This document shows, piece by piece, positions 14,766-33,460 of a DNA stretch of 64,000 bases (position 1 is its first letter; every line of letters starts with the position of its first letter). The notes below the pieces were generated by a model that saw only the letters and a program-made list of their open reading frames with translations, did no database searches and had not been told where the DNA came from. Location: the NCBI GenBank assembly GCA_031267575.1, contig JAIRYN010000052.1:1-64000 (forward strand). Direction: 5' to 3'. The DNA is from Synergistaceae bacterium (lineage in GTDB: Bacteria > Synergistota > Synergistia > Synergistales > Aminobacteriaceae). Position numbers and translations under genes: made by a program.

Positions 14766-14935
14766 GCCTTAAAACCTGCCACTGAAAACCCACATAAATG
14801 TGTAATAGTCCAGATTTTTCCTTTTTCATCCTTATTTTTCCTTCTTCATCCTTCCCTCTTTCGCCAAAGCTACTCAAGTTTGTACGGAAGTCCAAAGGCT
14901 TAAATTCCCGTGTAGCCCACCCACGGTACATAGCT

Positions 14936-30389: not shown

Positions 30390-30730
30390 GATAAAGCGAT
30401 GAGAAAGCCAACGGCTTCAGCCGTCATTGGATGAGATTAGATAAGAATCGCAACGCCGTCAACGGTGGCGTTTGTTTTGTATTTGATTGCTTGCCATATG
30501 TCTACTTTTATGTTAAACTTCTTTCATGGCTTATCAACGCGAGATGCGGGGCGGAACACGATGGGGATATTAATGCAATCGTAAATATTCTCAGAGTGGG
30601 AGGCATTCGCTCTTAGGCATTCGCTCTTAAAGGAAAAGATGTATCTTAAAGGAGAAGACGTAAGACCGGTTTTAGTCGGCTGTCTTTGTCGATCTTAGAA
30701 TCTTATACTTTAGTCGTGGGAGTATGTCAA
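30390..30730 (+). mobile_element. IS608-type mini-element, copy C (341 bp)
   Basis: Inserted after TTAC 30386-30389, ending TCAA 30727-30730. AAAG and GAAT guide tetranucleotides are present. The internal frame keeps KLLSWLINARCGAEHDGDIN and IVNILRVGG, the end of TnpB, then a locally duplicated GGCATTCGCTCTTA segment and the right-end region. The right hairpin has decayed on its 5' arm (TTATACTTTAGTCGTGGG). Confidence 0.9.
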
Positions 30731-30850
30731 GGTAGCATCCATGACGTTGGATGAATTGATATTGGATGAATTGATAAATGATTCTCAAAAGTGGATCGTG
30801 TCTGGGAAGTAATTTTGATTAAGGTAATTTTGATTAAGGAGGATGCGTAA

Positions 30851-30946
30851 ATGTTCAAGTACACTATTTTCACGCAAGCTCAATTTGCGATGAGCATGAT
30901 GATGTGCATGGACTACGGATCCTCGCCTGGAGCGATCGCCGTCTAG
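30851..30946 (+). CDS. Methionine-rich leader peptide upstream of metY-metX
   Basis: A 31-codon frame with a full ribosome site AAGGAGG (30836-30842) eight bases before its ATG, ending at TAG 30944-30946. Codons 14-20 read M-S-M-M-M-C-M, five Met codons in seven, in addition to the start Met; the rest (MFKYTIFTQAQFA before, DYGSSPGAIAV after) has no recognisable domain. It precedes a U-tailed terminator and the methionine-biosynthesis genes metY and metX. This is the arrangement of amino-acid leader peptides such as TrpL, HisL and ThrL, in which scarcity of the product amino acid stalls the ribosome in a run of its codons. Function as a Met sensor is inference; the Cys codon in the cluster could add cysteine sensitivity. 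Confidence 0.8.
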   Translation: MFKYTIFTQAQFAMSMMMCMDYGSSPGAIAV

Positions 30947-31000
30947 TCGATCATGTGCTCAAGCGACGGGGATCCCCAAAGTGGGGTCCTCGTTTTTTTT
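30918..31000 (+). promoter_or_regulatory. Attenuator (terminator with overlapping antiterminator) for metY-metX
   Basis: Terminator: ACGGGGA-bulge-CCCC (30966-30977) pairs with GGGGTCCTCGT (30983-30993), followed by a run of T to 31000. Alternative pairing: GGATCCTCGC (30918-30927, inside the leader ORF just after the Met cluster) can pair with GCGA (30963-30966) plus GGATCC (30970-30975), occupying the 5' arm of the terminator. A ribosome held at Met codons 14-18 would leave 30918-30927 free, allowing the antiterminator; one reaching the stop codon would cover it. A small hairpin GATCG/CGATC (30932-30950) may act as a pause site. The structures were derived by hand without energy calculation. 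Confidence 0.75.
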
Positions 31001-31038
31001 GTTCTAGTAACATATATCAAGTCAGGAGGAGTATCGTA

Positions 31039-32331
31039 ATGAGCAAAAACTGGCACTTTGAAACACTGGCTATCCACGGAGGGCAGATTCCCGACCCGGC
31101 AACGTTGTCCCGGGGCGTGCCCATCACCCGGACGAGTTCCTTCGTCTTCAAAAGCGTGCAACACGGCGCAGACCTTTTTGCCCTGAGGGAGCTGGGAAAC
31201 ATCTATAGCCGGTTGACCAACCCCACGGTGGAGATTTTGGAGCAGCGGGTCACTCTTCTGGAAGGGGGAGCGGCCTCTGTGGCCACATCCTCCGGCACCA
31301 GCGCGATTCACTACGCCATCGCGACCCTGGCTCAAGTGGGCGACGAAATCGTATCGGGAACAAACCTCTACGGTGGAACCTACACCATGTTCGATTCCAT
31401 ATTCCCCCAGTTTGGCCTCAAGGTCAACTTCGTGGACGCCCGTGACCCGAAAAACTTCAAAAAAGCGATTACCGCTAAAACCAAAGCGCTTTATATCGAG
31501 ACCATCGGTAACCCTGCCCTGGACGTGACGGATGTGGCCGAGGTCGCGCGCATCGCCCACGAAGCGGAGATCCCCCTGATCGTTGACGCGACCTTCACCA
31601 CGCCCTACCTGTTGCGAAGCATCGAGTACGGCGCCGACATCGTGGTCAACTCCCTGACGAAGTGGATGGGCGGCCACGGAACCGCTATCGGCGGCATCGT
31701 CACCGATTCCGGTAAATTCGCCTGGAAAGGCAACAAAAAATTTCCCTTGCTCAACGAACCGGATTCCAATTACCACGGACTCCGCTGGGCTCATGACCTC
31801 CCAGAGGCTCTGGCCCCCATCGCTTACGCGCTGCGGGTACGCACCGTTCCTCTCCGCAACCTAGGCGCGTGTCTTTCGCCGGATAATGCGTGGATTTTCC
31901 TTCAGGGTTTGGAAACGCTGCCCTTCAGAATGGAGCGCCACGTGGAGAACGCGGCTAAAGTCGCCGAATACCTCGCTTCCCATCCCAAAGTAGAATGGGT
32001 CCGCTTCCCAGGGCTCAAGAAAGATCCCACCTACGACACGGCATCAAAGTACCTCAAGAAGGGCTTCGGGGGCATGGTGGTCTTCGGAGTCAAGGGAGGT
32101 GTCAAAGCGGGCGCGCGCTTCATCGAGGCACTGGAACTTTTCAGCCATCTGGCGAACGTGGGCGACGCGAAATCTCTAGCGCTCCACCCGGCGAGTACGT
32201 CCCATAGCCAATTGACGGAGGAGCAGCAGAGGGCTGGCGGCCTTCCTCCCGAGTTGGTCCGGCTTTCTATCGGTATCGAGCACATCGACGACATCTTGGC
32301 CGATATCGAAAACGCCCTGGCGAAAGCCTGA
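31039..32331 (+). CDS. metY: O-acetylhomoserine sulfhydrylase/aminocarboxypropyltransferase
   Basis: A 430-residue PLP enzyme of the Cys/Met metabolism family that converts O-acetyl-L-homoserine and sulfide to homocysteine. Lys208 in NSLTKWMGGHG binds PLP, Asp183 in IVDATFTTP contacts the pyridine nitrogen, and SRLTNPT with Tyr57 region plus SSGTSA are cofactor-phosphate contacts. The C-terminus GIEHIDDILADIENAL is typical. ATG 31039 with AGGAGG nine bases upstream is chosen; an open stretch upstream in the same frame runs through the attenuator and is not coding. The gene forms an operon with metX 37 bases downstream. Confidence 0.96.
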   Translation: MSKNWHFETLAIHGGQIPDPATLSRGVPITRTSSFVFKSVQHGADLFALRELGNIYSRLTNPTVEILEQRVTLLEGGAASVATSSGTSAIHYAIATLAQVGDEIVSGTNLYGGTYTMFDSIFPQFGLKVNFVDARDPKNFKKAITAKTKALYIETIGNPALDVTDVAEVARIAHEAEIPLIVDATFTTPYLLRSIEYGADIVVNSLTKWMGGHGTAIGGIVTDSGKFAWKGNKKFPLLNEPDSNYHGLRWAHDLPEALAPIAYALRVRTVPLRNLGACLSPDNAWIFLQGLETLPFRMERHVENAAKVAEYLASHPKVEWVRFPGLKKDPTYDTASKYLKKGFGGMVVFGVKGGVKAGARFIEALELFSHLANVGDAKSLALHPASTSHSQLTEEQQRAGGLPPELVRLSIGIEHIDDILADIENALAKA

Positions 32332-32368: not shown

Positions 32369-33460
32369 ATGTCCGAACGATTCGGCTCGGTCGTGCTTCC
32401 AGAACTGACGCTTCACTCCGGGAAAGTTCTGAAGCAGGCCCGGGTGGCCTATTCTGTCAACGGTACTCCGCGCCCCGACGGCTCCAACGTCGTGGTGGTC
32501 TGCCACGCGTTGACGGGCAGCCATCACATGGCGGGGGAATCCGTTTCCGATTTGCCCGACGCGTGGTGGGATCCGCTGGTGCGGCCGGGCGGAGTCCTGG
32601 ACACGGGCAAGTTGTGTATCGTCTGTTGCAACAACTTGTGTAGTCCTTACGGAAGTTCCTCCCCCACCGACATTGAGCCCGGCACGCGACGCCCTTGGGG
32701 AATGCGTTTTCCCCTGATCGATCCCCACGACATCGCTCTCTCGCAGAAAATGACCCTGGAGGCCCTAGGTATCCCACGGGTAGCCGGGGTCATTGGCGGA
32801 TCCCTGGGCGGCATGATCGCGCTGGAGTGGATGTCCCAATTTGCCGCTTCTATGCACTTCGGAATCTCCATCGCGGCGCCCTTACGTCTTTACCCCCAGG
32901 CCATCGCCTTCAACGGAGTCCAGCGTCACGCGATCACCTCGGACCCTGAATGGTTGGGAGGTGACTACTGTCCCGGCAAAGGACCCATCAACGGTCTCTT
33001 CAACGCGCGTATGCTGGCAATGATCACCTACCGCAGCGAGGAATCCTTTGTCCGGCGTCACATGAGATCATCCCGCAACATTGACAATTGGGCGGGGCAC
33101 TTCGACGTCGAAAGCTATTTAATGCATCACGGAAAGCTCTTGACCAGGCGTTTCGACGCGAATTGTTATCTTTACCTCACGAAGATGATGGACCTGCACG
33201 ACCTGGCCAGAGACCACGCCGATGCGGAGGCGGCTCTGGAACCTCTGCGCAAAAAACATTTCTTGGGAGTCGGAATCAACAGCGACATCCTCTTCCCCAC
33301 CTGGCAAGTGCGGGAGGTAGTGGAAGCGGCCAAGGACGTGGGAGCAAACGCTGTCTATCGAGAGCTTCACAGCGACGTGGGACACGATGCCTTTCTAATA
33401 GAGACCGATCAAATGAGCGCGATTTTCGGGGAATTTTTCGACTCCATCGGCCTCTATTGA
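32369..33460 (+). CDS. metX: Homoserine O-acetyltransferase
   Basis: A 363-residue alpha/beta-hydrolase-fold acyltransferase making O-acetylhomoserine (or possibly O-succinylhomoserine), the substrate of MetY. Catalytic Ser145 lies in GGSLGGMIALEW, Asp306 in GINSDILFP and His339 in DVGHDAFLIE. VCHALTGSHHMAG and RRPWGMRFPLI are the oxyanion and substrate blocks. The elbow is GGSLGG where many MetX have GGSMGG. The ribosome site is weak, suggesting translation coupled to metY. A 15-bp-stem hairpin follows the stop. Confidence 0.94.
   Translation: MSERFGSVVLPELTLHSGKVLKQARVAYSVNGTPRPDGSNVVVVCHALTGSHHMAGESVSDLPDAWWDPLVRPGGVLDTGKLCIVCCNNLCSPYGSSSPTDIEPGTRRPWGMRFPLIDPHDIALSQKMTLEALGIPRVAGVIGGSLGGMIALEWMSQFAASMHFGISIAAPLRLYPQAIAFNGVQRHAITSDPEWLGGDYCPGKGPINGLFNARMLAMITYRSEESFVRRHMRSSRNIDNWAGHFDVESYLMHHGKLLTRRFDANCYLYLTKMMDLHDLARDHADAEAALEPLRKKHFLGVGINSDILFPTWQVREVVEAAKDVGANAVYRELHSDVGHDAFLIETDQMSAIFGEFFDSIGLY

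Follow-up and report, generated by a model that had tools for sequence, protein, structure and literature searches.

A probable tRNA-Met-sensing attenuator ahead of metY-metX in a Synergistaceae bacterium, and related leaders across the order

The metY-metX locus and its leader

The window, that is, the whole 64,000-nucleotide stretch of DNA analysed here, carries the genes for O-acetylhomoserine sulfhydrylase (metY) and homoserine O-acetyltransferase (metX), preceded by a short methionine-rich open reading frame, a set of mutually exclusive RNA pairings and an intrinsic terminator. That metY and metX are the downstream genes had been proposed in a first-pass annotation made from the sequence, and matches to TIGR01326 and PRK00175 confirm both identities. 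The features of the locus, with their coordinates in the window, are the following:

30733-30738, + strand: -10-like box TAGCAT, also present, downstream of TTGACA, in relatives L006 and L008
30836-30842, + strand: Shine-Dalgarno sequence AAGGAGG of the leader ORF, read directly and rated a good site
30836-30847, + strand: Shine-Dalgarno sequence and region 1 taken together (direct reading, folds)
30839-30847, + strand: region 1 (GAGGATGCG), which pairs with region 2; native duplexes of the Shine-Dalgarno region with region 2 are better than cross-class swaps
30851-30946, + strand: Met-rich leader ORF of 31 codons, ATG to TAG (MFKYTIFTQAQFAMSMMMCMDYGSSPGAIAV), with its TAG stop at 30944-30946
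30890-30910, + strand: Met run, codons 14-20 (ATG AGC ATG ATG ATG TGC ATG), the proposed stall site; ATGATGATG in 14/14 metY leaders of the family
30916-30925, + strand: region 2 (CGGATCCTCG), 5' arm of the antiterminator, which also pairs with region 1
30930-30960, + strand: intermediate hairpin between regions 2 and 3, holding the leader stop codon (folds; covariation in helices 4 and 6 among 49 attenuators)
30963-30977, + strand: region 3 (GCGACGGGGATCCCC), 3' arm of the antiterminator and 5' arm of the terminator
30965-31000, + strand: intrinsic terminator, with stem 30965-30994, U-tract 30993-31000 and region 4 at about 30982-30993
31021-31029, + strand: metY ribosome site (GTCAGGAGG)
31039-32331, + strand: metY (NCBIfam TIGR01326, 606 bits)
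32369-33460, + strand: metX (PRK00175, 363 bits, above the cut-off)

The leader ORF has Met at codons 14, 16, 17, 18 and 20 by direct reading, and a Cys codon at 30905-30907 lies within the region of the run. The ribosome site, the 31 codons, the five Met codons and the stop at 30944 are thus all found where the first-pass annotation had placed them, and its terminator, a stem with a U-tract that ends at 31000, 38 bases ahead of metY, is borne out as well. The stem begins at 30965 or 30966 by direct reading and was scored as a 12-pair hairpin with a T-run; shuffled regions average 0.5 terminator-like sites each. The antiterminator arm that the annotation had put at 30918-30927 is present in sequence (GGATCCTCGC), although one base further upstream, at 30917-30926. 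In addition to region 3, region 2 has the ribosome site of the leader itself as a partner, and this site stands in for the classical protector stem.

No good -35 box was found ahead of TAGCAT at the window locus, and a promoter scan there was without result. A dispersed repeat stops at 30730, abutting the leader, at the place where relatives have the -35 box; the repeat seems to have displaced that box from the window copy, the expression of which is putative. The stretch concerned, 30400-30730, is one of about 40 dispersed copies in the genome of a repeat of about 330 bases (74-85% identity), most of which share the same right edge. By eye, the repeat looks like the 3' end of tnpB with an IS605-type right end (omega-RNA-like), and the tnpB-like ORF at 30431-30616 had no Pfam match. 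Elsewhere in the window, positions 14838-14898 of the - strand match the RAGATH-18 RNA with 60.8 bits.

Methionine genes are usually under the control of SAM riboswitches, T-boxes or MetJ. The annotation had seen neither a SAM riboswitch nor a T-box, in agreement with the Rfam scan, which at its thresholds found no riboswitch or T-box in the window, SAM-I (RF00162) and T-box (RF00230) both being absent at the locus. The single SAM-I riboswitch of the genome precedes metK (TIGR01034, 571 bits).

Conservation, folding and the proposed switch

Orthologues of metY occur in 13 further genomes of the family, with 84-94% identity, and the Met run, region 2 and the terminator are found ahead of all 14 of these close orthologues. 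Every one of the 14 leaders has a ribosome site and an ORF of 28-37 codons whose reading frame includes the Met run. Toward the N-terminus the codons are free to vary, the Met run and what follows it are nearly invariant, and differences in length inside the ORFs amount to whole codons. Such a pattern is expected of a leader that is translated and whose end overlaps an RNA element.

Across the order, the regions upstream of metY fall into three groups, with a SAM-I riboswitch, with a Met-run leader and terminator, or with neither. A Met-run leader, an antiterminator and a terminator also precede metY in family f4 (loci L029, L117, L123, L129, L131-L137, L139 and L141) and in one genome of family f10. 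The f4 leaders mostly have other arms (GCAGAGCC with GGCTCTGC, or TCTGCCTC with GAGGCAG), and their region 2 nonetheless pairs with region 3 and with the ribosome-site region of the leader. A Met cluster or an alternative pairing that is not conserved among relatives had been named at the outset as evidence that would count against the proposal. The proposal withstood this test: the Met cluster, region 2 and the terminator stand ahead of 14/14 family orthologues, and the pairings are kept with different sequences in the second family. At one of the f4 loci, L129, positions 10-178 of the - strand, opposite to metY, give a T-box-like match of 75.7 bits, against a gathering score of 93.

Native region 2:3 duplexes have a median of -25.1 kcal/mol, against -14.9 kcal/mol for cross-class swaps (p = 1e-13), and native duplexes of the Shine-Dalgarno region with region 2 reach -22.8 against -16.2 kcal/mol (p = 2e-11), p-values of rank tests that are indicative only and overstate independence, since the loci are related. 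A safer version takes one representative per sequence class; in it, the native matching of regions 2 and 3 is the single best of 720 permutations, and that of the Shine-Dalgarno region with region 2 lies within the best 5. Inside the family, the latter pairing is only partly independent evidence, because region 2 contains CCUC, which would pair with any Shine-Dalgarno sequence.

It is scarcely conceivable that an ordinary terminator merely follows a Met-rich ORF arisen by chance, with no regulation. Short ORFs are common, but at a Met frequency of 2.4% a 31-codon ORF would hold five Met within seven codons by chance with a probability of about 1e-5, the arrangement is conserved in 28 metY leaders of several families, covariation is present, and a Met-run leader with a terminator precedes 0 of 79 metY relatives from other phyla. 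Control independent of translation, by an unrecognised riboswitch (for SAM or methionine, for example) or by a protein-binding RNA to which the ORF is incidental, is likewise very improbable. The start codon, the ribosome site and the frame are kept in 28/28 metY leaders while the N-terminal codons vary, the f4 leaders resemble the window type in Met codons and layout but hardly in RNA sequence, and one RNA frame carries different codon runs for different regulated pathways (see below). Moreover, no Rfam 15 family matched at the attenuator in the 18 loci scanned, where the matches were to neighbouring SAM-I aptamers or were sub-threshold. Such control would nevertheless fit a leader that folds more stably than its shuffles as a whole (z = -3.3), as well as the SAM-I riboswitches that replace or accompany the element in relatives.

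The starting point of region 2, 8-14 nt after the Met run in most loci, would place it immediately beyond the stretch that a ribosome stalled at the run covers. Pairing was modelled for the RNA made before region 4, with the ribosome stalled at the Met run or at the stop codon. The expected region 2:3 pairs number 11.8 in the first state vs 1.7 in the second, and are higher with the ribosome stalled at Met in 27/28 loci; for the window locus the values are 13.7 and 0.0, with 9.9 pairs of the Shine-Dalgarno region with region 2 expected when the ribosome is at the stop. With no ribosome, 1.4 region 2:3 pairs are expected at the window locus, but in many other loci region 2 still pairs with region 3 (mean 7.7), and a clear contrast between stalled and absent ribosome is seen in only 18 of the 28 loci. 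In the full-length RNA at equilibrium, the terminator is favoured in nearly all modelled states, which are not separated, and the switch must therefore be kinetic, as in known attenuators.

The window locus thus has a translatable short leader ORF with a ribosome site ahead of the operon, a conserved run of codons (five Met in seven) for the amino acid that the operon makes, and an intrinsic terminator between the ORF and the first gene; an antiterminator that excludes the terminator and is freed by a stall at the run, not at the stop, is seen in the thermodynamic model only. By default, region 2 (30916-30925) would be paired with the leader's own ribosome site, leaving region 3 free to form the terminator with region 4, and metY-metX would be off. 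When methionine is short and the leader is translated, the ribosome would stall on codons 14-18 and clear region 1, and region 2, just beyond the ribosome, would pair with region 3 as the latter is made. This pairing would cause the terminator to fail, and metY-metX would be transcribed. With ample methionine, the ribosome would move on to the stop codon, which lies in the intermediate hairpin; regions 2 and 3 would then not pair with each other, and transcription would end.

The first-pass annotation had proposed that charged tRNA-Met gates metY-metX through stalling on the leader peptide. The conserved Met run, the exclusive pairings and the terminator support this proposal, and from them we infer the response to methionine itself. 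In our estimate, the element is a ribosome-mediated transcription attenuator sensing charged tRNA-Met, possibly with Cys as a second input, with a probability of nearly nine in ten.

The possible second input is suggested by a Cys codon, present immediately after the Met run in 58 of 72 Met-run leaders (Arg takes this position in 8 of 72). This codon is kept in families with different RNA arms, and in the genome of the window, leaders with Cys codons lie ahead of cysE. Conceivably, Met and Cys codons both stall the ribosome and the leader responds to Cys-tRNA together with Met-tRNA, which would refine, not contradict, the sensing of charged tRNA-Met. We regard such joint sensing of the sulfur amino acids as a tentative suggestion and rather doubtful, because a lone Cys codon is a weak stall site and L009 and other loci have Arg (CGC) in its place.

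Related leaders across the order

A first covariance model, built from the metY leaders and expected to be specific for metY, matched 31 of 83 genomes of the family, and it also matched attenuators that keep this layout but differ in codon run and downstream gene. Met runs stand ahead of MetQ, MetN, MetX and a cystathionine gamma-synthase-type enzyme, and of homoserine dehydrogenase and aspartokinase (with Thr), whereas Cys-bearing runs stand ahead of CysE and Ile/Leu/Val runs ahead of IlvN and LeuA. A broader model, made from 49 attenuators and used with a cut-off of E<=1e-5, matched 110 of the 183 genomes of the order, in 50 of 59 genera. In 12 unrelated genomes it found nothing above 28.7 bits, and scores of 20-29 bits were taken as background because those genomes reach that value. 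Forty more matches outside the family mostly fit the same scheme (MetQ, MetN or MetX with Met, PaaK with Phe/Tyr, IlvN with Val/Leu/Ile), so the codon run usually matches the downstream gene. An exception is L075 (G008:C113:483-602), where a PaaK-like CoA ligase lies behind a Met-run leader.

In the alignment of the 49 attenuators, 98% of terminator helix 9 is paired, and both partners vary at each of its 10 pairs. The stop-codon hairpin covaries too, in an alignment that was fitted to the same structure and leans that way. The region 2:3 pairing, which is absent from the model, is formed in 84% of cells, more often than in any slid register.

The genome of the window itself has attenuators ahead of metY, a solute-binding protein, cysE (with Cys), a membrane protein (with a Leu/Val/Ile run) and ilvN (Val/Ile/Leu); the last has a weaker score, 23.3 bits, yet a clear codon run. 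The one ahead of the membrane protein, L249 (G000:C56:22228-22339, - strand), has the run SLLLVIIISLI and precedes a membrane-like protein of 388 aa, which had no NCBIfam match and is possibly a branched-chain amino acid transporter. Loci L099 and L096 have FFAMMMCSDPPGA-type leaders. The 418-aa protein next to the L099 leader had no NCBIfam or Pfam match, and its gene is possibly an uncharacterised methionine-related one.

The exchange of codon runs also bears on a further explanation, in which the leader encodes an arrest peptide, MMMC...G(S/D)(S/P)PG, that senses a metabolite (Met, SAM or sulfide) in the ribosome tunnel, not tRNA charging, with the downstream pairings unchanged. The GSSPGA-type C-terminal peptide is indeed strongly conserved among leaders, and the frequent Cys after the Met run fits such a peptide. 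The GSSPG codons, however, are region 2, conserved for pairing, and they recur in Cys and Ile/Leu/Val leaders; f4 metY leaders do without the motif (-GRASLRQ, -GSFLMR) and keep the pairing; and it is the codon run, not the C-terminus, that tracks the downstream gene. An arrest peptide is therefore improbable, and sensing of tRNA charging is the reading we retain.

SAM-I riboswitches occur in 113 of the 183 genomes of the order, and in several of its members ahead of metY. In eight loci checked (L081, L092, L239, L240, L238, L267, L283 and L287, ahead of metY, metX or metQ in families f1, f3, f6 and f10), a SAM-I aptamer is followed by its own terminator-like hairpin and then by the Met attenuator, the SAM-I part ending 107-146 bases upstream of the attenuator core. 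The terminator-like hairpin of SAM-I is weaker in the tandem of genome G031. Such a tandem arrangement predicts a two-input gate that would open only if SAM and charged tRNA-Met were low at the same time.

Taken together, it is likely that the order has modular attenuators on one chassis with swapped codon runs, and that some Met loci, behind SAM-I, form a two-input gate. The chassis would consist of the leader ribosome site as region 1, a region 2 encoded as GSSPG or GSPPG, the stop-codon hairpin and the terminator, and the runs swapped in it would be those for Met, Cys, Ile/Leu/Val and Phe/Tyr.

Comparison with known systems

In the trp, his, thr, ilv, leu and pheA operons of enterobacteria, the leader ORF contains a run of end-product codons, and an antiterminator and a terminator exclude each other. 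Methionine has been a notable gap in leader-peptide attenuation. The element described here shares with the enterobacterial attenuators the codon run, the exclusive antiterminator and intrinsic terminator, and a region 2 just past the run. It differs from them in its methionine specificity, in its protector, which is the leader's own ribosome site and not a stem over the codon run, and in the second hairpin, with the stop codon, between regions 2 and 3. The SAM-I riboswitch (RF00162), the Met T-box and MetJ govern the same genes in other bacteria; unlike the window element, SAM-I and the T-box need no translation to sense SAM or uncharged tRNA.

With a conserved Met-tRNA attenuator, one can test whether charging of elongator tRNA-Met serves as a signal even though every ORF starts with Met. 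In the genome of the window, a division of work suggests itself in which SAM would act on metK through the riboswitch and tRNA-Met on metY-metX through attenuation. The tandems of SAM-I and Met attenuator offer a directly testable two-signal gate, and the exchange of runs within the order-wide family amounts to a natural experiment in changing attenuator specificity. The sequence model also allows amino acid regulation to be annotated in a group that has received little study.

The met 5' UTR of Xanthomonas was considered as a precedent and rejected, being described as SAM-I-like and without a leader peptide (PMC6230763). Cysteine attenuators, namely actinobacterial leaders (PMC1262725) and the uORFC-8-2 cysS motif (PMC8632094), also have sulfur amino acid codons in a leader ORF, but they are specific for cysteine and belong to other genes and other bacterial groups. 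In the open-licence literature, outside which an earlier report is possible, one weak candidate for an earlier methionine-specific leader attenuator was found, Streptomyces metL. This leader, ahead of metNIQ in S. lividans, is a proposed attenuator; it is leaderless, its Met codons are scattered (..RCMCRRMCAF) and a typical Rho-independent terminator is missing (PMC8079986). Like the window leader, it is a short ORF that contains Met (and Cys) codons and precedes methionine genes, whereas the compact run, the terminator, the antiterminator and the conservation across genera set the present element apart. Leader-peptide attenuation is old; going by the open literature, its methionine version is apparently new apart from the metL candidate.
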